Shown in pieces: positions 20,960 through 64,000 of a stretch of 64,000 nt of DNA. The stretch's first letter is position 1. Each line of letters starts with the position of its first letter. A program made the position numbers and the translations under genes. Origin of the DNA: Craspedostauros australis (lineage: Eukaryota > Bacillariophyta > Bacillariophyceae > Mastogloiales > Achnanthaceae); contig JAMXDE010000052.1 of the NCBI GenBank assembly GCA_026770025.1, positions 310,001 through 374,000 on the forward strand, written 5' to 3'. Under the pieces are notes generated by a model, which had not been told where the DNA came from, ran no database searches, and saw only the letters and a list, made by a program, of their open reading frames with translations.

Positions 20960-22284
20960 TTTTATAAACGATAGATCAGGGCAAACCTGCGGATTGGATC
21001 GTGCAAGGAAGACAACATCATTCAAGAGCAGCAGGCTGAATGAGCAAGGAAGAGGAATTGAAAGACATCCCTCTGTCCCAACTGGCTATCAAGCAAGAAG
21101 AAGGTGCGAGTGAGACTCAACTTCAAGAGCAGAAGGAAGTAGCCGCGGCTACTGTCCTATCAGGCGCAGAGGCAAGCGCAATCGACAAGACCGAAGAAGA
21201 ACGGTCTGCAAGACTACATCACGAGAAGGAGAGGATCCTCAAGGCGATCAAGCAAGAGGAGACTGGTGTGACGGAGAGCATTCGCACAGCCAAACAGAGT
21301 GGGAAAAGTGAGACACTACCAGGAGGAGAATTTGTGACGAAAACAATCTCCGCGCAACAACAAGCAAAAATCGAAAAAGTGACAACACAGAAACAAACGG
21401 AAATCAAGGGCGCGAGCGCACCAACAACGAAACAACGAATCAACATGGTGACACCAGCCAACACGAACAAGCGACGCATCAAGGCGCCGATATTCAGTGG
21501 TGAACAAGAGGATTATAGCACATGGGAGTCCCAAGCAAAGGCATATGCTCGTACACAGAAGACGAGAGATGTGATGTTGGGCAAGACGAAGATCCCAACA
21601 GTGAGTGAGATCGAGGCAGCCGTCGACGATGCCAAGGAAGCGATGAAGGAAATCTACGAACTGGGATGCGACTGCTTCAGCAATCTGATCCTCATGATGG
21701 ATGCGGAGAAAGGAAAAGGCAAGCAGGCCATCCAGTACATCAACCAATGCGTCTCCGACGATTATCCCGAAGGAGATCCACATGCAGCGTGGAATGTTCT
21801 CGCAGGGAAGTTCCGTCCATCCGATGCAGCAACGAAGATCAAACTCAAGCGCCAATTCAACAACGAAAAGATGAAGAGAGACTCGGACCCTGACATCTAC
21901 ATCACGCGACTCGAGGGCCTACGCTCGCGTCTCCACGATGTCAAGTACACGATCACAGACGAAGAGATGATCATGCAGATCCTCAGCACGGTGAGCGTGG
22001 AATACAGAACTCACATCGTGAACTTCCAACACCAACTCACGTTTAATCCGGAACTGGTTACCATCAACGCAATCAGAGGAGTGCTCCGCACTGCATACGC
22101 CACTCATCAAGGAGGCAAGGCGTACATCGACGACTTCCAAGACAGTAACACGAAGAGTAACGACACCGGCTTCACGAGCACCGATAACTTCAAGGGGACC
22201 TGCCACAACTGTGGTGTGTATGGTCACAGATCCGCCGATTGCCCAGAACGCAAGAAATCAAACAACAAGAAAAACAACAACAGC

Positions 22285-22316
<32 letters not shown>

Positions 22317-25300
22317 AATGAACGGAAAGCGCAACAAGGGAAGCGGCTTCAACGGCAAGTGCAACTACTGCGGCATCTTCGGACATCGCGAGGCGGAGTG
22401 CCGAAAGAAAAAGTTCAACAAGAAGAAGAAGGCCGACGAGCAGGCCAACACAGCAACGGAAGGACACGACAAGAGCGGACACGAGATGGTACTCTCGGCG
22501 AAGGACATGCCGCTCTGCATGTTGGTGTCCAACAACTACATCAAAGACTCCTTCTTCGATAACTTCGAGTACATCGGGAGTGACAACGAAGTGGAGGACG
22601 ATGAGATCGTCCCGGAGTGGCTCAGCGAAGAGCCCATCATCCACGAGGTGGATCCAAGACGCGAAGTGAGCTACGAATGCTGCTTCAACGCGAACGACCT
22701 GATCGGTCCATACGGCGACAGAGCTGAGATGGGCAACGAGGCCATCGATAGCGACATCAAGGAGGCCATGAGTGAAGAAGATGGCGACGAACCCAACGAG
22801 AATGACAGAGGCCGAGATGAAACGAATGGCGGCGCGGCGCCGCCCGCTCCAGCGGCAGGGAATAACAGATCGGGTATCTTCGATGAAGACGATAGTGATG
22901 AAACAGAAAATCACCCAGACGACAGTTTCAATCCGAACGAGCGTGTCGTCTATCCGACAGGGATCCAATTCCCACCAGTCGGGAATCCCAACAGGTCGAG
23001 TCAAATCCATCAACATGACACAATCCCCTACGGAGCGGCCACAGCATTGACGATTCAAAAGCAACTGATTTTCGACGCTGTGATGGCAGCGGGAGTGGAG
23101 ATGTTCTCAGGAACTCCAGAAGGAGCATTCATGCCAATATGGGTGAACATGATGGGATCCATTCTGTCTGTGAACTTCAGATCCATTGAAGAGATTCTCG
23201 CCAACTCAGTCATCATCAATCGACTGTTGGAAGCAGAAGACACAGAAACGATCCCAGAGACGGATCTGCATTACATCCTTGGAGGGTGTATGTGCGTGCT
23301 ACTGCGTGAGCGACCACGAGTAACACCTTTCGATCCAGTCACCAGAACTCATCGAAACAGCACAGTTCCATCGGACTATGCACAACTACCCGACGACATG
23401 AATGATGAGAATCACCACAATCCATACAACAAAGATGGAGCTCACGAAGACGACGACGATGACAGCTTTGACGACGAGATAGCTGCAGCAGCCGTAGATC
23501 AGCTCCACGAGCTGAGCACCAGATACAAGGACAAGGTCAACAAGGACACCTGGCTCGCTGACAGCGGAGCTTCGTGTCACATCGTCAATTCAGACACGGC
23601 CCTCTTCAACGTGCGGCATATCAAGTCCTTCGTCCAAGTGGGAGACAGTACGAAGCTGGACTCTCCCAAAATGGGTTCCATTCGCTTGAAGGTCAAGCAA
23701 CAAAACAACACTGGCCACATCATCCGGCTCGATGACGTGAAGTACACACCGAAAATGGCGGTGAACCTTTTCTCCACGAACAAGGCTCTGTACAACGGTT
23801 ACCAGCTTGGTAGCAACGGCATTCTGATGGACATCATCAACGGATCCGGAACGAAGATCGTATTCGACCGAGTCTTCCCCACAGCCAACGGATTCATCAC
23901 GGGAGTGCAGATGCATCCCATCATGCCAATGAACGACGACAAGGCTTGCACAGCCATCGTCAAGAACCCATCCAAGGAGATCAGCGCGGTGAACTTGCAT
24001 CGAATGCTCGGCCACGCGCCACTCGAAGCCATGAAGCGGACAGCCGCCCAATACGGATGGAAGATTATCGGCGAGATGCCGGTATGTCGCGACTGCGCGG
24101 TCGCGAACGCAAGAGTGAAGAACATCCCGAAGGCAACCATTCCGAGAGCAACTCGCCGCGGCGAACGGCTCTTCATTGACATTAGTTACACTAAACACAT
24201 AAGCTTTGGAGATAAACGCTACTGGACCCTGATCGTGGACGACTGCACGGATCACTGCTGGAGTTTCTTTCTCAAGAACAAGAGTGATCAACCAGGATAC
24301 ATCAAATGATTTGTGCAAACGATCAAATCACCAACAGGTGACCAACAAATCATCTTCCGAGGAGACAACAGCGGAAAGAACAAATCCACGCAGGACATTC
24401 TCGTCAATGCTGGACTGAATGCGAAATTCGAGTTCACGGCATCCAACACGCCACAGCAGAATGGTAGAGTAGAACACAAGTTTGTGTATCTCTACACCAA
24501 GATCCGCTTCATGCTCAATGGAGCACAACTCAATGACGAGTACAGGCATGGCCTGTGGGCAGCAGCCGTGAGCACTGCCACCGCCATTGCCAACGTCACT
24601 GTGGCAAAGAATCAGAAGAAGTCACCACACCGCCAATTCTTCGATAGTGATCCACCATATGCTGATGCACTTCGAACATTCGGAAAGGCGGGTGTTGTGA
24701 AGACGACCTATGGTGGGATCACTGCCAAACTCAAGAATAGAGGAGAGGAGATGGTGTTCATTGGATATGCACACCAACACGCATCAGGAGTGTACAACAT
24801 GTACAGACCATCAACCAAGTCACTGGTCTGTTCTCGCAACATCAAATGGCTCAATCAATCATACGGACTGTTCCGTGGCTGGGCGCAAGCACCAAACACA
24901 GTCAACAATGCAGACACCACGGACGCAGACGGCTTCAAGGCCATCGGACGGAAGGGAGCAACGCCAAGGACGGCAGCGCGTCGAACATCAGAGGTGAAGA
25001 GAGTATCTTTTGCTGACACAAACAAATACCACATCCTATTAGATAGTGATGATGAGGATGATGAAGACGATGGAGCAGTGGCTCAACTAATCCATAATGA
25101 CGACGAAGATTGGAGCGAATCCAATCATGATGATGACGAGATCCCACCATCCGGCGACGAAGCCGACAATGACACAGGCGTCACTCCTCCGAACACACCA
25201 GCGAGGTCTATACATGATACACCATCAAGACCTCCACCAAGCAAACCAATCAAGCGTGACATAGCTAGAAAGGAGAGAATCCGGCGTCATGAAGCACGAG

Positions 25301-26918
25301 GCAGGAAGGGAGAAGCTAATCCAAAGCCAACCACAGGGAAGAGCATTCCCAGAGCTCTGCGTGAGCTCGCAGACTTCAACGAACGAGGTCGAAAGGAAGA
25401 GGGTTATGAGAGCAAGTCATCATCCAATGAAGAGAGTGATGAACTCAGCGACGAGGTGGCTGACGAATCCAACAACGAAACTACAGATGATGAAGAATTC
25501 GCAAACGAAGATGACGAGATCAAGATCATCCATCATAGCACAACAGGATTATACAGGATGAATGCAATCATTACCGAATCGCCAGCGATCGACATCGGAC
25601 TGTCGATGCAGGACGAGAACAAGGAACCAGAGAAGCACATCGAACCAACGACATTCGATGGAGCCTCCAACCATCCAGATCCCATCCATCGAAAGGGATA
25701 TCGAGCAGCCATCAAAAAGGAGTTCGACTCCATGGATACACGCAAGGTGTACAGCAAGATCAAACGAGACGCCATCCCACGCGACCGCAGATGCTGCAAA
25801 TGCAAATGGGTCTTCAAGCTGAAACGTGACGGCACACATCGAGCGAGGCTCGTTGCATGTGGCTACTCACAAGTCGCAGGAATAGACTTGCAAGAGCATT
25901 ACTCACCCATCATCCACGACGTGACCTACTGAGTCATGATGGTGATCATGCTGATCAAGAAGATGGACTGCGCACTCGTCGATGTCGTAACGGCATTCCT
26001 ACACGGAGACCTTGACGAGGAGATCGAACTGAACCATGACAAGACTAGAGCGACATTGCGTCAACCACATCTCATCCAACATCTCATCGAAGAGTTCGGA
26101 GCCAAGGTTGAGAAGATGCAACGCTACGCGACACCGGGAACCCCGGGTCAAATCATTGTACGACCATCCGAGGACAACGGACTACGGAAGGTTGGAGCGG
26201 AAGAACATGCCGAATACCGCCAAGGCGTTGGTATGCTACTCTTCCTCATCAAGCACTCGCGACCAGATATCGCGAACCCTGTGAGGGAACTCTCCAAGGT
26301 ATTAATCGGGCCCACCAAGGCTGCAATGAAGGAGATGTATCGGATCATCAAGCATGTGATCGATACAAAGGACTATGGATTGAAGATCCATCCAGCACGT
26401 CCAGACGACGACGGCTGGGACATGGAGCTCTTCTGCGACAGCGAATATGCAGGAGACAAGAACACGAGAATCAGCGTAGGGGGATTCATCTTATACCTAT
26501 GCAAGGTACCAATCCTTTGGTGATCCAAGGCACAGAAGGCCGTCACACTCAGCTCATCCGAAGCAGAATATGTCGCCCTTTCCGAAGCGGCAAAGGAAAT
26601 CTTCTTCGTCGTGCAGATACTCGAAAGTGTGGGCGTCCCAGTGAAGACGCCGATCAAGGTCCGTGTGGACAACATCGGAGCGATCTTCATCGCCAAGAAC
26701 CCATCAACATCCCAACGATCGCGGCACATCGACGTGCGCCATCACTACGTGAGGAACATGGTAATCAACAAAACCATCGAAATCATTTTCGTCAAATCCG
26801 AGCAGAACACAAGCGACGGATTCACCAAGAACATCAAGGCCGACTTACAAAGTAAACATGAGAAGTCATACCTTGATACATCGAGAACATTCGAATGACC
26901 GAATGGACACAGGAAGGG

Positions 26919-37964: not shown

Positions 37965-40900
37965 ATGCCGAACCGAAGAGACACGTACGACGGCGCGGGG
38001 CTGAACTACAGCTCGCAGTCCTTCCGCGGACAGTCCAACAGCCAGCACTCCTCGCGGCACATGTTCCCGCGCACGCCGCCGTGGTACCAGACCTGCGCCA
38101 GCAGAGCCGTGGGCATCATAGAGGGCATCATCGACCACCGCGCGTGGAGGCTGCTGGCCACCTTCTTCACCATCGTGCTGCTCTTCGGCACGCAGATCCA
38201 GCAGCTGCTGCTCACGACGACCACGGCCACCAACGACATCGTCTTCATCATCACCTTCCTCTTCTTCGTGCTCGAGATATGCTTTCGTCTCGCGTGCAAG
38301 TCAAACTACTTCCAGTGCAATCTGGCCAACGGCATCGGCAGCTACATCTTCTGGTGCGACTTCATATCGACGGGCATGATCCTATACGACATTTCCTACA
38401 TCAATCCGGATCACTTTCAGAGTCCCTCCATTCACATTCGGTTGGGGTTGGATGGTGTTCCGGTGAGTTTGCTTGTCATTCTTTCTTCAATGCTTGTCAT
38501 TGCATGTCTATATGGCATTGCATGTTGTTGTATGTTGTTGCATGTCTGTATGGGATTGCATGTTGTTGCATGTCTGTGTGGTATTTGTTTGCACATGCAC
38601 CTATACTCACCCTCTACCTGCTTGTACTCGTACTCATGCAATGCACCAACACCTCCTGACGCACAATTCCTCATTCACAGACAAGCGGCTTCACCAAGAT
38701 CACACGATTCGAACCAGTGGAGCTGGAGCGCGACCTCCTCGTCATCATCTTCCGCACCTTGCGCGTCGCTCGCTACGTCCGATCCCACACGGTCGTCAAA
38801 CGATCCTCCATGTTCGACTTCTTCTGGATCTTCCGCAACAGCCACCTCCTCAACCCCGTCTGGCACATCTGCCAATGGCGCCGCAACCGACAGCAGAAGC
38901 GACGACGCGACAGCGCCCTAGACGACGACACCAACCCCAGCAACACCATGATGTCCGGCAACGACTTCAACATGGAGTTCAGTTCGGACCACGTCAGCGA
39001 GCACAGCCGCTCACGTCTACCGCGTACGCGCGTCACGTGGCGCACAACGCAGCTGCATCTCCTCTCCCTCGTCAAGTGCGAGCGCGAGGCTTCCACGCTG
39101 CAGTGGATGCTGCGTGCCGTCGGTCTCGTGCCCAGCAAGAAGGTGCAGATCCAGCGTCACATCGCGGCCATGCAGATCCAGCGTTCGTTTCGTCGCTACA
39201 ATCGTTCCAGGCGTCGGGCAGCCCGCAGCCAGGAAGATGACGATGAATGGGGGGCCTCGTGGAATGGACGTTCCAGGCAGATGCGCAACGGCACGGCCAC
39301 CGTCACGACGGCTGCCACGTCCACGCGCAACGGCGCCACCATGCAACGCGAATCGCAGATCGGTAGCGACATGCGGGATCTCACGGGACAGCGCGTGGCC
39401 ATAGGCATCGTCCTGGCGCTCATGTTCACGGTCCTCTTCACCTACTCCGAGGAGGAATCGTCGCGACTCAACGCCATGGTCGTCCTGCACAAGCAGACGC
39501 AGCACACGGCATTCCAACACCAGGCGCTGCAGGCGGCCAAGCGGACCTCCGCGCATGATCTCTTCTGGTACCAGCTGCAGAATGAGACGGTGCTGGAATT
39601 CGACGACGTCCGCGAGAAGGGCGCCTCCATTGACGACCTGCGGGACCGCGAGAAGCTCATCATCACGGTCAGCGACACCGACGACAAGCAGACGAAGGGA
39701 CAGTTCGCCTACCGCTCCGAACGTGTCCACTCGGCATGGGCGGAAATATCGGCGACCCTCTTCGTTCTGCTGCTTTGGTTTTTGGGCGTCACGGCCTTCG
39801 CGGGACCCGTCATGAGCCTGGTCGTCACGCCCATCGAACGCATGGTGCGGCTGCTCGGCATGCTCATGCTGGATCCGTTGGGCTATCAGAGCACGTCGCG
39901 TTTCAAGCGCTTCTTGGCCGAGGAAGACACGCTGATTCGCAACACGCGGTGGACCAAGGAAGTGCTGCGCGGGATGGAAACCTCCTTCCTCATGTCCACC
40001 ATCCTGCGTATCGGTTCCTTGATGAAGGTCGGCTTCGGCAGCGCCGGTGTCGAGATCATTCGCAAGAATCTGCAAAAGGGATCGGACACCATGCTGAACT
40101 TGACGGAGCAAGGTACGACCGTGTCATGCATCTTCCTGTTCTGCGACATTCGGCAATTCACGGATGCCACGGAATGCCTGCAGGAGGAAGTCTTCGTGTT
40201 CACCAACAAGATCGCAGCCGTCGTGCATTCCTTCTGCCACGCCTTCGGTGGATCGGCCAACAAGAACGTGGGCGATGCCTTCCTCGTGAGCTGGATCCTG
40301 GACGACGGCAGCAACGCTGAAGCCGGCAGGAACAACAGTGGCCGCATCGCGCGAGCCAAGAACTTCCAGGCCGACAAGGCTCTGTTTTCCGTCATCAAGA
40401 TCTGCATCTCGCTGCATCATGACAAGTACTACATCGAAACCATGAGCGAGGCTGCACGCGAGCGCTTGCTCAACAAGCTGTCGAAACGGCCGGGACCCGT
40501 CGTGCAGATGGGATTCGGCATCCACGCCGGCAAGGCAGTGCAAGGCGCCATCGGTTCGCAGCGCAAGATCGACGCGACGTACGTTTCGGAGGCGGTGGAG
40601 CGTTCGGAATTCCTGGAGTCGTCGACCAAGAAGTACGGTGTCAAGATGCTCATGTCCGACAGCTTCCACGAGCTGCTGCATCCCAAGACGAGGCAGAAAT
40701 GCCGCATGGTGGACAAGGTGATGCTGCTGGATGACGACGAGGACGTGGATGCGGACGACGGCTACCTTGGCGAACCCTCCGGCGATAGGATGGACCTGTT
40801 CACGTTCGACATGGACATCGACGCACTGTTCCGCACGCCGTTCCGTCGACCCGGCACCGGATCTGACGTCCACTCCGACACGGATTCAATCCGCGATGGA

Positions 40901-41407
40901 TCCATCACGCTGCAAGGCAAGAGGTTGAACCGGCGTCCCCAGACCTCGGCACGCGGCATGCGACGAAGGCGCAGCATGATCCAGAAGGTGAACCCGAGCG
41001 AAGAGCTGGCTTCCAACGGCGGTGACGGACCGACGTCGCACCACGGCCACCACGCCGGCACGAGCGTCAGCTCCAACGTCTCCGAGGCCGGTGACTTCAA
41101 CAACGCCAACAACGGCGCAGGCATGGCCGAATTGCGCCTCCCGACGGGCCCCTTGCCGTACAACCTCAACTCGTGGCACCGGTCCGACATGAAGCGCATC
41201 CGCGATCGGTACGTCCACGGGCTCTTCTTTCACAAGTTCGATCAAGGTCTGCAGGCATATTACAACAGGGATTGGGACAACGCTGCGGTATGCTTTCAGC
41301 ACATTCTGGACACCTTCGAGGATGGACCCTCCAAGTACTTTGTGGCGCAAATCAAGAAACATGATGGCAAACCGCCACGTGATTTCCGGCCTTACAGCAT
41401 ACCATAG
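37965..41407 (+). CDS. Voltage-sensor-like, IQ-motif class III nucleotide cyclase A
   Basis: Exons 37965-38462 and 38681-41407 around a 218 bp phase-0 GT-AG intron give 1074 aa. Layout: helices S1 ~62-84, S2 ~92-110, S3 ~126-145, then an S4-like helix with Arg at 191, 194, 197 and 200 (RTLRVARYVR); a basic linker; an IQ motif at ~330-343 (MQIQRSFRRYNRSR); membrane helix ~404-421; a ~100-residue exterior loop; membrane helix ~523-549; cyclase domain ~645-860; and a TPR-like tail of the GLQAYYNRDWDNAAVCFQ type. Metal-binding Asp residues are visible at 655 (CDIRQFTD) and 698 (NVGDAF). It should make cAMP or cGMP at a membrane, probably tuned by voltage and calmodulin. The usual catalytic Asn/Arg pair is absent (VERSEFLES at ~805-813). 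No pore segment is visible after S4. The intron position matches cyclase B. Confidence 0.88.
38498..38590 (+). repeat. Intronic imperfect tandem repeat (GCATGTTGTTGCATGTCTG type)
   Basis: Two to three imperfect units of roughly 35 bp within the single intron of cyclase A. No coding role. Confidence 0.6.
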
Positions 41408-41822: not shown

Positions 41823-42269
41823 ATGAACCGCCTCATCCATCTCCTTGTGCTCTTCGCGTGCAGCTGGTCGCTGATGGCCGTCGAGGCCTTCCAGCCCATC
41901 CACCACCGTTCTGCGCAGCGCAGCAACACGCAGCAGCTGCATGGCTTCTTCGGTGACTTCCTGAAGCGCTTCACCACGAAGGCCACAGCGTCGCATATCC
42001 TGATCAAGGGCGGAGCCGAGGCCGAGAACAAGCTGGAGGACCTCAAGGCGGAGATCGACAACAGCCCCATCAAGTTCGCCGAGGCCGCGACGAAGTACTC
42101 GGCCTGTCCATCGAGCCGTCAGGGTGGCAGCTTGGGTCAGTTCGGGCCTGGACAGATGGTGAAAGAGTTCGACACCGTGGTCTTCAACGATGATGTGGGG
42201 GTGGTGCATGGTCCCATCAAGACGCAGTTTGGGTATCATTTGATCTACGTCAGCGAGCGGACGGAGTAG
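41823..42269 (+). CDS. Parvulin-type peptidyl-prolyl isomerase, probably plastid-targeted
   Basis: Single exon, 148 aa. Parvulins catalyse cis-trans isomerisation of peptidyl-prolyl bonds and assist folding. Residues 1-22 form a signal peptide (LIHLLVLFACSW core) ending VEA|FQP, an Ala-Phe junction like the ASAFAP motif that sends proteins through the ER into the secondary plastid of diatoms. Residues ~23-52 are Ser/Arg/His-rich with few acids, as in a transit peptide. The catalytic domain (~54-146) shows ASHILIKG, FAEAATKYSACPSS, GGSLGQFGPGQMVKEF and FGYHLIYVSERTE, including the expected His, Cys, Phe and His positions. The length fits a single minimal parvulin domain. It lies between two convergent cyclase genes, about 325 bp from the end of cyclase B. 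The plastid location is inferred from the motif only. Confidence 0.88.
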   Translation: MNRLIHLLVLFACSWSLMAVEAFQPIHHRSAQRSNTQQLHGFFGDFLKRFTTKATASHILIKGGAEAENKLEDLKAEIDNSPIKFAEAATKYSACPSSRQGGSLGQFGPGQMVKEFDTVVFNDDVGVVHGPIKTQFGYHLIYVSERTE

Positions 42270-42593: not shown

Positions 42594-45500
42594 TCAAGCC
42601 CTGCCGTACGGCTGGAATCCCCGTGGTGGTCGACCATTGTTCTTGAGGATTTGTCCCAAAAAGTATTCGGATGGTCCGTCGCGGAAATCGGTCTGCACGC
42701 TCTCGAAGCATTGTCGGGCTCTGTCCCAATCCTTTGAGTAGAACGCTTCGAGGCCTGTGTTGAACTTTTGGAACATGACGGTTGTGTATCGTTGGCGGAT
42801 CTTGCTCATGTCGTCCTTGAGCCAGTCCTTGGCGCTGTACGGCTTGGGACCCGTCGGCAGCTCCGGTTTCTGCGCGGATGCTCGTCCACCACGTGTCGCG
42901 TCGCCCTTGGCGTTGTCGCCGCTGTCGCCGATGAAGAAGGCGGAGCTGACGCCGTCGGTGCTCTTGGTGGTCGCGCTCGTGACGGTTCCTGTCTCCATGG
43001 ATGCTGCAGGGCCGGATTTCATCTCCTCGCTCTTGCCCATGTCGGTGAATCCGAGCATGCTCTTGCGGCGGTTGCGGACCTTGCGCCCGGTGCCGCCGCC
43101 GGGACCGATGCGTGTCGACTGCTGACGGTTCAATCCGCCGCCTCCGCCGAACGCGTCGTGTCCGTCGCCTTGCAACCCGGGATTGCTTCTGCTCAGCGCA
43201 CCGATGTCCATGTCGTACGTGTACATGTCCATCCGGTCGCCAGTGTCGAAATCATCCTCCTCTTCTTCGTCATCGTTCTCGAACATGATCTGATCGATCT
43301 TACGGCACCGACGTCGGTTGCTGGAGTGGAGGAGGCTGTGGAATGTGTCCGACATGAGCATCGGGAGGCCGTACAGTTTCGTGGAAGACTCCAGGAACTC
43401 CGCACGTTCCACGGCCTCTGAGACGTACGTGGCATCGATTTTACGCTGGGAACCGATGGCACCCTGAACAGCCTTGCCGGCGTGCAGACCGAATCCCATC
43501 TGCACGACGGGACCGCTGCGCTTCTTCACCTTCGATAGCAGCGCATTGCGTGCTGGGATGGACAATGGTTCGAGGTAGAAGTCATCGAAGCGCAATGCGA
43601 TGCAAATGCGCACCACGCTGAGCATGCACTTGTCGGCTTGATTGTGCTTAGCGCACAGGGAGTGCTCATTGCCTCCGCCGCCGTAATGATGACCGACCGC
43701 TTTCTTGTCTTCGCCGAGGGTCCAGCTCACCAAGAAGGCGTCGCCGACGTTCTTGTTGGCGGACCCACCGTAGGCGTGGCAGTTGGAATGCACGACGGCG
43801 GCGATGCGGTTGGTAAAGACGAACACCTCCTCCTGCAGCGACTCTGTGGCGTCGGTGAATTGGCGGATGTCGCAAAACAAGAAGATGCAGGACACGGTGG
43901 AACCTTCGGATTGAAGGAAAAGCGTGTTGGTGCTCTGCCCTGCGGACAGGTTGTTACGGATGATCTCCACTCCCGCACTTCCGAAACCGACCTTCATCAA
44001 GGAACCGATACGCAGGATGGTGGACATGAGGAAGGACGTCTCCATGCCCTTGAGCACCTCCTTGGTCCAACGCGAATCCTTCGTGAGCTTCTCATCTTCG
44101 ATCATGAACTTCTTGAAACGCGAAGAGCTTTGGTAACCCAACGGGTCGAGCATGAGCATCTGCAGCAGGCGGACCATGCGTTCGATCGGTGTGATGACCA
44201 ACGTCATGACTGGTCCCGCGAATGCCGTCACGCCCAGGAACCACATGAGAAGCACGAAGATTGTTGAGAGCAGCTCGACGAGCGCCTCATCTTCACGTTG
44301 CGATCTGTACATAAACATGCCTGTTGTGACTCCCAGATCGGACATGACTGATGATGATGATGATGATGATGAACGGTATCGCAGAAGATGTGTATGGTAG
44401 AGTGGTCGATTCGTAATTGGATAAACGAACGGACATGAAGGGAACGGTGGACAAAGTGAGTTGGATGGTGGAGTTGAGAAACGAACTGGACGAGTTGATC
44501 AGCACCGCCAACGGCAACAATGCAAGTTTCGCGAACGACGATTGACATTGCCATTTAGGAACCAACAAACACCAAACCAACGTACCGGTGATCGCGAGCT
44601 TTTCACGATCGCGCAGATCGTCGGTGTCCTTCTTGTCCTTGAAATCGAGCTCGATATTGGTATCGCCGTCATCCAAGCGATCGCTCTTGAAGTAGAAGAG
44701 GTCCGTGGCGGAGCTGTTGCGCGCCGCGCCCAACGCCAGCTGGATGTGATCCGTATTGGCGTTGGCGATGGTCTGGCCATGCAGCATGACCATGGTTGTG
44801 GCGGGTGTGGAATTGGCCTGCCGGTACGTGAGGAGACTCGTGAGGATGAGGCCGAAGAGGACCCCGAGCGCCAATCGTTGGCCCGTCAGTTCTCCCATGG
44901 CCGTACCCAGCTGCGACTCTGGTTTGGTTTCGACGACGTTCTGTGCGTTGCGCGCGCTTTCCAAACCGCCTTCGGAGGCCTGGCTGTTGCGTGGGTGTGA
45001 GGACCGTTTGCCAAACACCCGTTGGATGAGGGCGGACGATCGACGGAATCGCCCACGCCACGAGGAGCTCTCGTTGTCCTCCCCTGCGTGAGCACCAATA
45101 TCGTGGATGGCGCTGTGCCTCATCTGCTTGCGCCTCCATGCCTTTTGGATCTTGGTCGCGGCCATGTTGCGCTTGAGTTCGAGGTTTGAGTCCGGTGCCA
45201 GACCGAGGAAGCGCATGCCGGAGCGCAGAGAGGCCGTCATGAAGCCTTGCTGCTTCTCGTTGGCCTCCTGCAGCTGCTTGGCCTTGGCGGCGAAGACGGA
45301 TTCCTTGAGATCAACCGGGCGTCTCGTGGGTGGGTTCTTGGCAGCCTCGTCCTCCTTCTGCTTCCTCTGTCGCCACGATTGGATCTTGCCGATGTAAAAT
45401 CCCGGCATGAGGCGTTCGATGTACCAGTAGAGGTTGAGCCACAACGATACCTCCACCACGGTGGACGAGGGCACCGAGCGAGCAATGCGGGCGGCTCTTG

Positions 45501-46366
45501 CGATGACCACGAGGATCTCCGAATCGACCGCGATGGGGATTGGTGGATTGATTTGTTCGCCAAAGTTTGTCTGTACATGTGAGTGGATTCGAGAGTATGC
45601 AAGTGGATTCGAGTGTATGCAATTGCATGCAAGTGTGTGAGTGAGAGGTTTGGAAATGGTGAAGTGATGAATGGCCACAGCAGAGACATCAATATCAACA
45701 TCAATACTAACACCAACGCATATGCACAAGCACAAGCACAAGCACAAGAACATCACCGTCTCACAACCTTCTCACAACCGTCCCACAACTCACCGGCAAC
45801 CCAAATTGATTCAACTCAATGTCCAGGCGCTTGATCTCGAAGCCTTCTCGATTGACGTAAGATATGTCGGCCACCAACGTCGCCGTGGAGATGACATCGC
45901 ACCAGAAGTTGAAGGAGCCGAACTTGCATCGCCACGACGAGGGCGTCGACTGAGCCACCGCGTTGTCCAACGGCGTGCGGCGACACATCGAGAAGTACTC
46001 GCGGTCCGTGAGGAAGCTGAAGAGCATGTCGAGCAAGAAGAAGGACAGCGTGGTGGTGTAGAGGATGTCGAATCCCAGATCCCAGCTCTTGGGCGCCGCC
46101 AGCGTTTGCAACGGCGAGCCGAACAGCAGCACGAACGTGAAGAAGACGTTGAGGCTCTTCCACAGCACGGTGCCGCGGATCTGGTGGCTGACGCGCTGCA
46201 GGCATTGCTGCATGGGACTCGCGTCGCAGCAGCAGCGGCAGTCGCAGCACGATACGGCCTTGCGTCTGGAGTCGATGCTGCGGTTGAAGTGGGCGTCGCC
46301 ATGTTGCTGATGCTGTCCCATGTGCTGCGACGGCGGGTCCGTGAAGGAAAGGCTCCCTTGTCTCAT
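42594..46366 (-). CDS. Voltage-sensor-like, IQ-motif class III nucleotide cyclase B
   Basis: Three exons, 45794-46366, 44586-45570 and 42594-44347, with introns of 223 and 238 bp, give 1103 aa. Intron 1 is phase 0 at the same site as in cyclase A; intron 2 is extra and its acceptor follows an ATG/CAT microsatellite instead of a pyrimidine tract. The N-terminus has a Cys cluster (CCDCRCCC at ~40-47). Helices S1-S3 fall at about 70-165, an S4-like helix carries Arg at 216, 219 and 222 (RAARIAR), the IQ motif is at ~330-342 (TKIQKAWRRKQMR), membrane helices lie near 450 and 545-570, the cyclase domain runs ~670-880 with metal Asp at 679 and 722, and the tail is TPR-like. The catalytic Asn/Arg positions read VERAEFLES, as in A. 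It is expected to make a cyclic nucleotide at a membrane. Alternative starts are possible, since a second Met lies at residue 16. Confidence 0.85.
44349..44371. repeat. (ATG)n microsatellite at a splice acceptor
   Basis: About seven triplets directly upstream, on the minus strand, of the inferred exon 3 acceptor of cyclase B. It takes the place of the usual pyrimidine tract. Confidence 0.85.
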
Positions 46367-47278: not shown

Positions 47279-49274
47279 TCATACCTCCGCCAAGAGTTGG
47301 TCCAGCATGTCGCCCATCTGCGAGTCATTCACGTTATCTGCGCACTCCGGAACCTCCATTTCGTGCTCTTCGTGCTTTCCCGTGTGCCAAGTGTTCACGA
47401 AGTCGAGGATGTGCTCCTCGTCATCGTGTCCGTCTTCTTGGTTGAACATATCCTCGACGGGAGGGTCCATTGCGTCTGCGAACGTTGCCGTTGCCGCTGG
47501 CTGGTACACGTGATGGTGCATGGCCGGCTGGGCAGCTGGCTGCTGCAGGAATGCTACGCTGGACACGGAAGGAAGGGCGAAAGTTTGGTTCAGAAACGCG
47601 TTGCTGTGGGCGGCGGGCTGGCTGTTGCTCGCTGTGGCGTTCGCGTCGATGCTCAGATGCACTTGGTTAGCATTCTCTGCAGGAGAGGCCTGGTGGGCGA
47701 GGCTGGTGAATGCGATATTGGGGTCGGATGTAGCGATAGAGGGAGTTGCTAGCGTGTATTGTTGGTGGTGACCGTTGCCAAGGCTGGGATGGGCGGTCAA
47801 TAGCAGGCTGTTCAATGAAGGGTGCGGGGTGACCGTGTGAGCGGTTGAGCCATGCCCTTGCGTGTTTGGAATGGTCAGCACGAACTTGGGCTGTGCTGCA
47901 GACGCGGATGGGTCCTCTGCGATCGGCGTGAGCTTCACCGGCAGCGCTGGTGGGGTGGGGGCTCGGACCGCGATTGGCTTCTGTAGGAATTGAGAGGAAA
48001 GGTGGGTGACGTTGCGAATGGCGTTGGAGGTACGAGTACGAATAGGCAGTTGCAAGAACAAATCCGAATATGAATGAAAATACGCAAGTACGTATTTGGC
48101 ATGGGTGCAAAGGGAAGGGTTAGTTGCGTTAGAGTGCACGTCTGCTCAATGGAACGCACAATCATGAAGAGGAAGGAAAGGAGCAAGGCGAAAACTCCCA
48201 GAGGAATGAGAGCATGGAGGAATACTTCGATTGCGGACTTACCATCGTGTAGAAGTTTGGCTCGAGCTCTGGGCTGCTGGCGGCCTTAAAGCGGGTGCCC
48301 TTGACTTTGGTGCGCATCATGTTCTTGCACAGAAAGGCTTTGCCGCGCAGGAAGTATTCGTTGTAGTATCCTCCCTCATCTGGGCCCCGCGTGATGCGAT
48401 TGAAGCCGTATAGATTGAGCTGGCGTTGGAAGCTGGTGAGCTTGGTTTGGCGGAAGTACTTCGGCATCACCTCGGAAACGAATTGCTTTGGCTTGTGAAT
48501 GACGAAGCAGCGTCCGTGTGGCTGCCATGAGACGATGTGCGTGTATCCAGCCTGCTCCACCTGCTCCAGCACGGAGTGCAACTTCATGGGGAAGGAAGTT
48601 GACGACCCGCTGCGGTTCTTGCTGGACTTTTCGTGGGCGTCCATGTCCACGGCGTCGGCGCGGTCGGTGTAGTTGTGGACCACAAAGTGGCGCTCCTGGT
48701 TCTTGGCGGTCTTGCCGGGCTTCTGGGGCTTGCGGCGTCGGCGCTTTGGCTTGGTCTTCTCCACGGGCACCACGGCTTGCACTGTCGCGTCCGATCCGAT
48801 GGTCACTGGGCCGGATGGAATGGCAGAGTACGACCATGTAGCCTTGACGTCGGGAAAGGCTAGCGTGGTCGTGGCCGTTGCAGCTCCAGCTGAGGCCGCA
48901 GTTGCTGTTGTTGCTGCTGCTGGTAGTGATGGATTCACAGCGTTACCGGCGTGATCCACAGGGCTGACGATGGCGGGGATGAAGCAAATCCCGCCATGGC
49001 CAAAGGAGGGGAAGGCGGCAGCAGCGCCATTCGCTGGGACTGCGATGCTGCTTCCAACAGGATGAGACGCATCCGTTGATGTCGGGTGCTTCGAGAAGAG
49101 CGACCTCAGAACCTGGCAAGCGATTTCCGTCGTGCTAGACGCTGGGAGTCCTCCTCCAGTTGGATTGGTAGGGGGTGATGGGGTGGGCAGCGTGATGTTC
49201 TGCGCGAGAGGGACTTGCTCTCGGGCGACCACCTTTGGCTTTCTACTGGCAAGAGCGACGTTTGGATTGCACAT
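47279..49274 (-). CDS. HSF: Heat shock transcription factor family protein 1
   Basis: Two exons, 48243-49274 and 47279-47980, around a 262 bp phase-0 intron (GTAAGT...CCTACAG) give 577 aa ending in TGA. The HSF-type winged-helix DNA-binding domain is at ~228-326: FPMKLHSVLEQ, IVSWQPHGRCFVIHKPKQFV, VMPKYFRQTKLTSFQRQLNLYGF, then GGYYNEYFLRG and MMRTKVKG. It binds nGAAn-type heat shock elements. A basic run (KPKRRRRKPQKPGK at ~175-188) before the domain is a probable nuclear signal. The N-terminal ~170 residues are Ala/Thr/Pro-rich. The C-terminal half is Gln/Ala/His-rich and ends in an acidic segment (EDGHDDEEHILDFVNTW) with the look of an activation domain. A canonical heptad oligomerisation region is not obvious. 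A G/T-rich tract at about 49388-49447 lies in the likely 5' UTR. Confidence 0.9.
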
Positions 49275-58029: not shown

Positions 58030-61000
58030 TCAGCTTGATCCATCCTTCAACAACGTGGTCACCTGTTCAGCCATCCGCTCACATTCGTCTTCGTTCATCT
58101 CGGCATCCCAACAGGTCGATAGCAGGTACTCCGATGCCTCCATCTGCGCATCGTCATCGCGCCCAAGATCAGGAATCTCCAGCAACCGCACGTACAGTTG
58201 CTCCGCCATGTACCGACGCACGCGCGGGAATTGATGTTTCAGCACGTCCACAACGAACCGTAACGTTGCATCTCGATCTTCCGCGGCCAGCAGCCCCAGC
58301 GCAACATCGCTGATTGATAGTATGCGCGTAACGTCCGTGCAGTTCTGCACCTCCACTTCCAATTGAGCCAATAGGCGCTGCGCGAAGTCGGTACTTTCCA
58401 GCAACCGATTCATGCACATCTTGTCCATGAGCAGATGGATGGTTTTCAGCAGCGGATTGATGAAATGCCCCTGGTGCTTGTGCTCTGCAAAGTGTCGAAG
58501 AAACGAATCACCCAACATGTTCAAACGATCGAGGGCCTGCGTCGCCTTGATCCATTGAATCAGATTTCGCATTGCCTCCTTCGATATGCTCTCCGTCAAA
58601 CCACCAGCACTCATAATCAGGCCTGAAACAATCGAATGGAACAATGCATCGATGGAAGCTGCCTTCATCGCGACTGGAAAGGCGACGCATGGGCTGGACC
58701 AGTTCTGTGTCACATCGTCCGTATCCGTGTCTGCGCCTGCGTCTGCGTTGAACAACTCTTGCAGGAGAGCTGCGTCGGGGAGATGTGGAAAGCTCGGATC
58801 CTTCATCCTGACTACTCGTTGCAAGCATTCGCCCGCGGTGCCGCGTACCGCATCCAGCTTGCCTGTGAATTGATGGAACAGGCCGGATAGAATTTTGAGG
58901 ACTCTCTCTTGGTTCAAATACTCGTTGGAAGCTCCACAATCACGCTGAATGAGAGACGCGAAGGATACCAATCCCTCCATGGCAGCGATGCGCGACCACG
59001 AGCCAACATCGCCGCGTCGGTCCATGTTGTAATCCGCGAGCGCCGCAAGCAGCGTGTTCCAGACATGACCGATCTGCTTGCTTTGGAGATGACTGAGTGG
59101 ATATGCTTGTGCCTGCCCGTTGATCCCGACGGTGTTGCAAACTCTAACGAGCGCTTGCACTGAGTTGCGCCGTGTCTCAGCATCCTTCTCGTTGCCGACC
59201 GTCGCGTTGGGTTTGGCGAAGCGGCATAGCGTTGCCAGCACTGTGTCCAGGACCTTCTCGGACGGTGCCAGCAGCTTGGCTGGCAAGTATCCGAGCGCCA
59301 TTGAGAAACCACGTGTTGCCGCTGGATTGGTGTTTGTCCGTACTTGCTTGACGTACTTGTCGACAACTCGTTTTTGCAGTCGATCTGACGGTCCTTTTGG
59401 ACCAACTTGGAAGTACGTGGACATGAGCTTGCCAAGACCGGCGCAAGCTTGCTTCTGGATCACGTCGGATGGATGCGGGATGCAGGCATCGATGGTGTCC
59501 AACAGCTTGACCTGCTGCGGCACCGTCAGTGATAGTTCTGCCGTCGCAGTACACTCAATGAGTCGGCAGACGGCCGATCGCATCATCTCCCCACCCTTAC
59601 CTCTGTAGAGGCGCCTCTTCTCGATGGTCGGCACCAAGTCGGTAATCTCCTTCAGCGTGGCATCGGAGAGATGATCGCGATAGTGCGGGACGTTCCGCGC
59701 ATACCCCAAAATGACTTCGGCAAGACCAATGACAGCGCCGTGGCGCGAGATGACAGATTTGGGGTCTACGCTGGTTTCCAATAGGTAGGGGATGACGTTG
59801 CTGGCAAAGTAGGCAGGGTCCAGCTGGACCAACCCTCCCAACGACGTCGCGGCGAGCTTACGGATGTTCTCATCCCAATGCTTCAACTTCTTGCGACACA
59901 GATTGTCGGTGAGAGGATGGCGGTATTCTGCAAACTCAGCGACCTTCCAGCAGATCGCGGTGTAGGCATTCTTGCGATTGCCGAGCGAGAAGTAATCCGC
60001 CAATGTCAGGATGTCCAAACCGTTCTTGAAGTTGTCCGCACCCTGCCGTCCCACCATCTCCTGGAAGGCTGCGCTGGCCGCACGCCGGCAGTTGACTTCG
60101 CGGTCGAGCAAGCTGGTCTCCACGATGGAACGGCTCATGTCAGGGATGAAGGGTTTCAGTATGGACGGATCGTAGGCGCGTGCGCAGGCCCAGTAGGTGT
60201 AGCACGCCGCGTCGCGCACGTGGCTCCCGACACTTGTCTGGCGTCGCGGTAGATCGTACTGCATGGCATCGACGACCTTGGGGAGAACGTCATCCAACCG
60301 TTGCGGCAGCAGCAGACCGCGCCGCGCGAGCTCGGCCAGCGCCAGGCAAGCCCCGTGCCAGGCATGGTCCTTTTCGATGTCCTCGAAGAGATCGACGATG
60401 GCATCCAGAACATCGTCAGCGCAGACGGCGGGAAGGCGTTCTGTGATCCTGCCGACGCCCTTGGCCGCGGACCATCGCACAGATGTGGAAGGATCTTGCA
60501 AGCACTCGAGGATTCTACCCATGACGTCTTCGACTTCACTGGGAACTTCGAACAAGAGGTTGTCGCTGGTGTCGTTTGCAGCATGCTGTTTGGGTGGCTT
60601 CTGTGTACGCTGTGTGGCATTCGTGGTGGTTGAATTGCGCTGTGCCTTGCGCAGATTGTTCTTGAGGGAACGGCGGCCGCGTTGATACCGCCAGACGACC
60701 AACCTCGGCGGCATGTGCAAGGTGGCCGTTCTGGTCCAGTACTTGACGAGCAACCGGCGCAGGATCTGATTCGATGGGTTTGATTCCGCGATGGCATTCA
60801 TGGGTTGCCAGTAGGAACTTGCAACGCGCAGCACATCCTGTCGGTCGCTCTTGGACACCTTCATGAATGCCACAATGGTCTGCAGTACGCCCATGCATCG
60901 GAAGATGTGACGCTTCGTCCGCGAGAACTCCACCAGTGCTTCACGCGACCAAGTGACGAATCGTTCCAGCTCGTCACGCTGCAGATCGGGACGTGCTAAC

Positions 61001-61845
61001 CAGGACGCCAACGAAGAACTGGCAATGTCACGCGTCGGGCCAGCATCTTGCAGATGTTGCATGCCCAGGTCAACGAGCTTGTGAATGACACCATCGCCAA
61101 CGACGACCTTCGAATCAAAGGGGACCAGACTGAACGTTCCCATCCAGGTCCAGAGGCTGTAGACGGATTCCCACCGATCCGGAGCAGCAGTCGCTGGTGG
61201 GTGCTGAGGAAAGGAATCACTGGAAGTCGCGTTGGATGCACTCAACTGCTGTTGCGTTTGTGATGGCGAGTGTGGTTGTGCAAGTGGCTGATCTGATCCC
61301 ATCCCACGATCGTCGGAAACAGAACCAATCGCACACAGCGCTCGCCACACAACTTCGAGATGACCAACCTCATGAGACAGAAAGTTCTGGATCCGCTTGC
61401 GACCTCGCACCTTGCAGAGGGCGTAAAGAACGGACAGCAGGTACGGCAGGGCACCAGACTCCACTGTCTCCCGGTTCCATTCCTGCACAGCTTCCAGACA
61501 TTGAATGCAAGCCGTGGAGATCTGCTGCACGATGGACTCCACACTCCTGTCCAGCAGAGTGGGATATGCCAGGTACTTGTCGAGGATTTGCTTCAGCTGA
61601 TGGACAGTTTGACTGCGTTGGGCTTTGGAAAGCGACGCCGCCGTCGTACTCGTATCGTTCGTTGACAGCAGACAAATCTTGTCTCGCACGTCCTGGAGTT
61701 CCGCAAACAGGAGCTGTTCTGAGACCTTGATGTTCACATCATTGACAGTATCCGTCGCGGGATCATTGATGGCATCATTGTTGGCATCATTGGAAGCATC
61801 ACTGACTGCATCACGCGCAGGTGCTATCGCTGTTGCCACTGCCAT
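58030..61845 (-). CDS. TBCD: Tubulin folding cofactor D
   Basis: Single exon, 1271 aa from ATG at 61845 to TGA. The frame is open 24 codons further upstream through a GTG only. Length fits the family (about 1200 residues). TBCD takes beta-tubulin from prefoldin/CCT intermediates, joins the TBCE-alpha complex with TBCC, and releases alpha/beta dimers; it acts in the cytosol and at basal bodies. Recognisable segments: SYWQPMNAIAES and LVVWRYQRGRRSLKNNL in the N-terminal third, WSAAKGVGRITERLP near residue 465-480, HEAT-like helix pairs throughout (for example KLAATSLGGLVQLDP), and a C-terminal domain with RGTAGECLQRVV and SGLIMSAGGLTESISKEAMRNL. It lies head to head with the beta-tubulin gene, its client, 810 bp apart. 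Confidence 0.93.
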   Translation of the reverse strand: MAVATAIAPARDAVSDASNDANNDAINDPATDTVNDVNIKVSEQLLFAELQDVRDKICLLSTNDTSTTAASLSKAQRSQTVHQLKQILDKYLAYPTLLDRSVESIVQQISTACIQCLEAVQEWNRETVESGALPYLLSVLYALCKVRGRKRIQNFLSHEVGHLEVVWRALCAIGSVSDDRGMGSDQPLAQPHSPSQTQQQLSASNATSSDSFPQHPPATAAPDRWESVYSLWTWMGTFSLVPFDSKVVVGDGVIHKLVDLGMQHLQDAGPTRDIASSSLASWLARPDLQRDELERFVTWSREALVEFSRTKRHIFRCMGVLQTIVAFMKVSKSDRQDVLRVASSYWQPMNAIAESNPSNQILRRLLVKYWTRTATLHMPPRLVVWRYQRGRRSLKNNLRKAQRNSTTTNATQRTQKPPKQHAANDTSDNLLFEVPSEVEDVMGRILECLQDPSTSVRWSAAKGVGRITERLPAVCADDVLDAIVDLFEDIEKDHAWHGACLALAELARRGLLLPQRLDDVLPKVVDAMQYDLPRRQTSVGSHVRDAACYTYWACARAYDPSILKPFIPDMSRSIVETSLLDREVNCRRAASAAFQEMVGRQGADNFKNGLDILTLADYFSLGNRKNAYTAICWKVAEFAEYRHPLTDNLCRKKLKHWDENIRKLAATSLGGLVQLDPAYFASNVIPYLLETSVDPKSVISRHGAVIGLAEVILGYARNVPHYRDHLSDATLKEITDLVPTIEKRRLYRGKGGEMMRSAVCRLIECTATAELSLTVPQQVKLLDTIDACIPHPSDVIQKQACAGLGKLMSTYFQVGPKGPSDRLQKRVVDKYVKQVRTNTNPAATRGFSMALGYLPAKLLAPSEKVLDTVLATLCRFAKPNATVGNEKDAETRRNSVQALVRVCNTVGINGQAQAYPLSHLQSKQIGHVWNTLLAALADYNMDRRGDVGSWSRIAAMEGLVSFASLIQRDCGASNEYLNQERVLKILSGLFHQFTGKLDAVRGTAGECLQRVVRMKDPSFPHLPDAALLQELFNADAGADTDTDDVTQNWSSPCVAFPVAMKAASIDALFHSIVSGLIMSAGGLTESISKEAMRNLIQWIKATQALDRLNMLGDSFLRHFAEHKHQGHFINPLLKTIHLLMDKMCMNRLLESTDFAQRLLAQLEVEVQNCTDVTRILSISDVALGLLAAEDRDATLRFVVDVLKHQFPRVRRYMAEQLYVRLLEIPDLGRDDDAQMEASEYLLSTCWDAEMNEDECERMAEQVTTLLKDGSS

Positions 61846-64000
<2,155 letters not shown>

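Follow-up and report, generated by a model that had tools for sequence, protein, structure and literature searches.

The window analyzed here, a stretch of 64,000 nucleotides from the diatom Craspedostauros australis, holds two convergent paralogous genes, here referred to as A and B. Gene A comprises two exons (37965-38462 and 38681-41407, plus strand) and, as predicted from the sequence, forms one open frame of 1074 aa. B (46366-42594, minus strand) has three exons, and its first intron lies at the place corresponding to the intron in A. Five splice models were open for B, and the one used here was chosen because it matches A best. The features of the two genes are as follows.

37965..38462, plus strand: gene A exon 1, encoding the N-terminus and S1-S3; ATG after an in-frame stop, GT donor at 38463
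38148..38216, plus strand: S1, aa 62-84; hydropathy
38232..38297, plus strand: S2, aa 90-111, with F101-x-x-E104-x-x-x-R108; hydropathy, profile alignment, and residue reading
38331..38402, plus strand: S3, aa 123-146, with Asp132; profile alignment and residue reading, hydropathy just 1.22
38463..38680, plus strand: gene A intron between S3 and S4, 218 b, GT..AG; intron of B at the corresponding place
38681..41407, plus strand: gene A exon 2, encoding S4, linker, TM5, loop, TM6, cyclase, and tail
38732..38800, plus strand: S4, aa 184-206, with Arg191/194/197/200; profile alignment, shuffle test, and residue reading
39170..39211, plus strand: degenerate IQ-like segment, aa 330-343; A has no IQ match, and the site aligned to it in B scores 15.9 bits (cut-off 20.3)
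39395..39451, plus strand: TM5, aa 405-423; hydropathy
39452..39745, plus strand: presumed exterior loop, aa 424-521, 98 residues; hydropathy and residue reading
39746..39802, plus strand: TM6, aa 522-540; hydropathy
40127..40696, plus strand: class III cyclase domain, aa 649-838; Asp655, Asp698, Lys694, and Thr799 kept, Asn replaced by Glu806 and Arg by Phe810
45794..46366, minus strand: B exon 1, encoding S1-S3
44586..45570, minus strand: B exon 2, encoding S4, linker with the IQ-like site, TM5, and loop
42594..44347, minus strand: B exon 3, encoding TM6, cyclase (Asp/Asp/Glu/Phe as in A), and tail

A gene for a PPIC-type (parvulin) peptidyl-prolyl isomerase (41823-42269, plus strand) lies between A and B. 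The window also holds genes for an HSF-type DNA-binding protein (48162-49274, minus strand) and Tubulin-specific chaperone D (58030-61917, minus strand), as well as Copia-type LTR retrotransposon frames (21040-25932, plus strand) with gag and pol pieces in two adjacent ORFs. Across the genome, we found 88 silicon-transporter matches, which support the assignment to a diatom and are far above the numbers known for other diatoms; the best scores 831 bits, ∼30 span nearly the full profile with similar scores, and a few contain internal stops.

Using a hydropathy threshold of 1.3 for membrane helices, we identified peaks in A at S1 (62-84), S2 (90-111), TM5 (405-423), and TM6 (522-540), while S3 (best value 1.22) and S4 lie below the threshold. 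The linker from S4 to TM5 spans ∼200 residues. The initial annotation had placed S1-S3, an S4-like helix, and a cyclase domain in one chain, together with two more membrane helices around an exterior loop of ∼100 residues. This layout is borne out: the two-exon gene has a single open frame, TM5 and TM6 coincide with hydropathy peaks, and the loop measures 98 aa.

Searching the genome (74.8 Mb in 90 contigs) with A returned, among the best candidates scored, A, B, and two further genes, C on contig C38 and D on contig C77; with C as the query, the best candidates were again these four. Over 1095 columns, A and B share 44% identity, rising to 72% across TM6 and the cyclase domain, and C and D are 41% identical. 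C has ∼1425 aa, and D has 1021 aa as modelled without its N-terminus; three splice models are open for C and two for D, of which one each was used, and the models differ outside the cyclase domain and S1-S4. Both proteins have the same order as A, i.e., S1-S4-like helices, TM5, exterior loop, TM6, cyclase domain, and tail. Relatives elsewhere were found neither in viral_contigs using the A/B and C/D cyclase profiles nor in genome_contigs using the A/B profile; a degenerate DNA pattern for relatives gave two matches, which were read and dismissed as chance.

The cyclase domain of A matches PF00211 just over the cut-off (E 4.9e-5; 23.4 bits, cut-off 21.9), and its closest solved structure is the beta subunit of photoactivated adenylyl cyclase (PAC beta; E 4e-10 using the A/B profile). 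As annotated initially, the two metal-binding Asp residues (Asp655 and Asp698) are both present in A, and B has kept them likewise. However, this annotation overlooked that, based on the alignment to PAC beta, the transition-state Asn and Arg of A are replaced by Glu806 and Phe810, respectively; the residues in B are identical. The substrate-selecting residues of A are of the ATP type (K694 and T799); Lys together with Thr is an ATP-type combination, in which Thr is as in class IIIb. In most class III cyclases, the Asn-Arg pair provides the transition-state residues (PMC4215837). Because both residues are replaced in A, we suggest that A is incomplete as a cyclase by itself. Thus, a reading of A as a self-sufficient cyclic-nucleotide source is not supported, and C or D is probably needed as a partner. 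An AlphaFold prediction of the TM6-cyclase part of A/B from a two-sequence input was too poor to use (mean pLDDT 35).

The loss of Asn is in itself no proof of partner dependence because a cyclase in which Ala replaces Asn is still active (PMC4215837). The same finding favors a reading in which A homodimerizes and forms an atypical active site, with Glu806 and Phe810 or neighboring residues replacing Asn and Arg, as does the conservation of Glu and Phe in B. However, a Glu next to the triphosphate would be unfavorable, and this reading leaves the opposite losses in C and D unexplained; we consider it quite unlikely.

These opposite losses comprise both metal-binding Asp residues, which are Ala and Gly in C and Ala and Ser in D, while Asn and Arg are kept. 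Consequently, the two metal, Asn, and Arg positions read D,D,E,F in A and B and A,G/S,N,R in C and D; the substrate positions are Lys and Thr in all four proteins. This complementary pattern is constant within each pair despite the identities of only 44% (A/B) and 41% (C/D). In searches of solved structures, the match to C was confined to the Asn/Arg half in 13 of the 13 best stretches. By comparison, the A/B profile matched both halves, with the best stretch in the metal half in 6/16, in the other half in 9/16, and elsewhere in 1/16 cases; for the top chain, the values were 5.8e-5 for the metal half and 0.12 for the other half. Both chains of class III dimers contribute residues to each site, and chains lacking residues complement each other as heterodimers, as in mammalian membrane cyclases (PMC8815786). 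Because the losses in A/B and C/D are complementary, we predict an obligate heterodimer, in which A (or B) would supply the two metal-binding Asp residues and C (or D) would supply Asn and Arg together with the ATP-selecting Lys and Thr. Each dimer of A/B with C/D would have one complete composite site and a mirror site with neither set, as in mammalian C1/C2, and its product would be cAMP.

Alternatively, A/B and C/D could all be dead pseudo-cyclases, the domains of which serve only as dimerization or regulatory modules. Essential residues are indeed missing from each chain, and the genome encodes other degenerate cyclase domains (L103, L104, and L105). Nevertheless, the losses are complementary and conserved per pair, all four proteins retain Lys and Thr, and random decay would hardly spare the exact complementary set twice, arguing that this explanation is unlikely.

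Class III cyclase profiles matched 150 rows in the genome, of which 107 were read; none of these derives from A-D, and C and D are among the remaining 43. The first metal position is covered in 69 of the 107 domains, and 62 of these 69 have kept all four catalytic residues; in L106, the reading of this position is unreliable, as the row starts at an exon edge. In the other 38 domains, the three covered catalytic positions are all kept. The substrate-selecting position is Glu in 97 domains and Asp in one, and it is unreadable in nine because their rows start at an exon edge; Lys is present in 0/98 readable domains. Among the domains read, the ATP-selecting Lys, paired with Thr, is present only in A-D. 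The large cyclase set of this genome is GTP-type-looking, with Glu nearly throughout at the base-selecting position and mostly Gln at the second. Two GTP-type domains have a one-sided loss, i.e., L100 (N,E,N,R) on the metal side and L101 (D,D,D,S) on the Asn/Arg side. Because of these losses, split catalytic sites may be wider in the genome, and L100 and L101 could possibly represent further split pairs.

In the membrane part of A, Arg191, Arg194, Arg197, and Arg200 lie within one helix. The R..R..R..R pattern in a hydrophobic setting occurred in 41/20,000 shuffles of A (5.4% of shuffles without that setting), consistent with the S4-like helix with Arg at every third residue that had been recognized initially. 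The S2 segment of voltage sensors has the signature F/Y-x-x-E-x-x-x-R/K. A has the corresponding acids, with F101..E104...R108 in S2 and D132 in S3. In B, the S2 acid is Asp with no basic partner, and S4 has just three in-register Arg residues; in C and D, the S4 sequence is R-x-x-G-x-x-R-x-x-K. A pattern search of the four chains for the selectivity filter T-x-G-[YFLW]-G had no match in A, B, C, or D, in agreement with the claim that there is no pore.

Pfam Ion_trans did not match A even at E 10, and gene A was not among its 23 matches in the whole genome. For this reason, we compared profiles with channel sensors from the same genome. From the 23 Ion_trans matches, 15 were taken up, of which L028 was dropped for length, and eight, some without an S4 pattern, were left out; the reference thus consisted of 14 channel sensors cut after the S4 pattern. 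As controls, we permuted alignment columns in blocks of ten and used reversed sensors and three silicon-transporter segments. In global mode, A/B scored 14.9 (E 0.007) over S1-S4, and 0/80 shuffles reached this score (best 10.1); all four proteins scored 25.7 (E 7e-5) over S1-S4, again reached by 0/80 shuffles (best 13.0). Swapping query and template left these scores about unchanged (14.7 and 25.3, respectively), and the reversed-sensor and silicon-transporter controls did not exceed 7.5 against A/B or 9.0 against the four proteins together. C/D alone scored 16.0, which was exceeded by 1/80 shuffles and fell to 12.0 upon swapping. In the global profile alignment, the Glu in S2, the Asp in S3, and the Arg residues in S4 of A are in register with their counterparts in the channel sensors.

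In local mode, there is no clear separation of A/B from controls or shuffles: the score of 15.8 was reached by 1/40 shuffles (maximum 17.4) and is hardly above the reversed-sensor and transporter controls (top three 14.1-14.4). The corresponding scores were 24.7 for C/D, reached by 1/40 shuffles, and 27.5 for all four, reached by 0/40. A PDB profile search with S1-S3 gave no match, and AlphaFold with S1-S3 alone (S4 is in the other exon) and a two-sequence input was too poor to judge (mean pLDDT 42). A PDB search with the S1-S4 segment of A returned a ribosomal protein alone, which we judged to be chance. Altogether, the global profile comparison supports grouping S1-S4 of A with voltage sensors, while the local mode is weaker. 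The voltage-sensor-like module in the initial annotation is therefore upheld by the global comparison (0/80 shuffles) but is not upheld by Pfam Ion_trans at E 10 and not clearly upheld in local mode (1/40). Considering both ends of the chain, we suggest that the product of gene A combines a voltage-sensor-like module with half an adenylyl cyclase.

A third alternative accepts the heterodimer and takes S1-S4 as a structural relic without voltage movement, the exterior loop between TM5 and TM6 instead sensing a ligand or an ion. The three in-register Arg residues in B, the R-x-x-G-x-x-R-x-x-K pattern in C/D, the ∼200-residue linker between S4 and TM5, and the weak sensor likeness in local mode all fit this alternative. 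However, A keeps four Arg residues in strict three-residue steps, with its acidic residues in S2 and S3 in register, and we regard a relic as improbable.

A calmodulin-type IQ motif had been annotated at ∼330-343. We found that this segment is degenerate: from residue 332, A fits the IQ pattern (IQxxxRGxxxR) in neither its strict nor its relaxed form, and Pfam IQ has no match in A. The aligned site in B fits the relaxed pattern only and, at 15.9 bits, stays below the cut-off of 20.3. The case for gating by Ca2+/calmodulin via this motif is accordingly weak, and calmodulin control of A is possible but weakly supported.

With moderate confidence, we favor the interpretation that A is the metal-binding subunit of a heterodimeric adenylyl cyclase coupled to a voltage sensor. 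In this heterodimer, A or B would pair with C or D, and movement of S4 would be relayed via the TM5-TM6 pair and a cytosolic helix to the dimer, thereby altering its activity. The complementary losses would explain why a single chain might fail when expressed. Diatoms fire action potentials, and a heterodimer of this kind would constitute a direct voltage-to-cAMP converter in these organisms. It would also address the open question of how voltage sets cAMP without an ion pore, which the ciliate fusions have.

The architecture as such is not new because two Phytophthora proteins (38.75% mutual identity) that combine an S4-type sensor with a cyclase domain and lack a pore were published in 2025 (PMC12223298). 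Thus, as regards the initial comparison with the cyclases of ciliates and apicomplexans, the retained sensor and the missing pore stand, while a pore-less type was already described in Phytophthora (PMC12223298). The Enzymes section of that paper assigns no mechanism to these oomycete proteins and does not mention catalytic-residue losses, complementarity, or heterodimers (PMC12223298). The division of catalytic residues between two gene pairs in a pore-less voltage-sensor cyclase appears, at the level of sequence, to be what is new on this published architecture; the literature covered, which included few subscription journals, contained no description of a split voltage-sensing cyclase.

The Phytophthora-type family is described as apparently restricted to Stramenopiles and Alveolates and as occurring exclusively in flagellated or ciliated organisms, with one of the proteins located on a flagellum (PMC12223298). 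Unlike this flagellum-only distribution, flagellar probes in the present genome found nothing but one dynein heavy-chain gene, which is untyped. Profiles for IFT46, IFT57, and radial spoke proteins had no match in the genome; the control genomes are prokaryotic and cannot validate these negatives. One dynein without matches to flagellar probes fits a diatom without flagella and argues against the published distribution. If so, the sensor-cyclase family extends beyond flagellated organisms and would be no flagellar specialty. More tentatively, and somewhat short of even odds, we speculate that stramenopiles possess an obligate two-gene voltage-sensing adenylyl cyclase (A/B with C/D), in which cAMP is set by two non-identical sensors, and that it may be the main ATP-type cyclase here among ∼100 GTP-type-looking domains, having outlived the flagellum.

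Compared by description only, A-D resemble the Phytophthora type in having N-terminal voltage-sensor-like helices, no K+ pore, and a C-terminal class III cyclase domain; the Phytophthora genome has two sensor-cyclase members (PMC12223298). Similarly, the K+-channel/adenylyl cyclase fusions of Paramecium, Tetrahymena, and Plasmodium combine a sensor with a class III cyclase within a single chain (Weber 2004, as cited in later work); unlike these, the proteins described here have no pore filter, a ∼200-residue stretch between S4 and TM5 with an IQ-like site, and split catalytic residues. As in the pseudo-heterodimer of mammalian C1/C2, the site would be shared by non-identical halves, giving one working and one degenerate site (PMC8815786); however, the halves here are encoded by separate genes, and each half carries a voltage-sensor-like module of its own. 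If our reading is right, A also resembles Ci-VSP, in which S1-S4 is coupled to an enzyme without a pore (PMC10651576), but with a cyclase rather than a phosphatase, two extra membrane helices, and the need for a partner chain. Finally, the NeoR/RGC rhodopsin cyclases are obligate heterodimers of sensor-coupled chains from separate genes, as predicted here; in contrast, they are light-sensing guanylyl cyclases, and RGC1/2 retain all known catalytic residues (PMC8815786).
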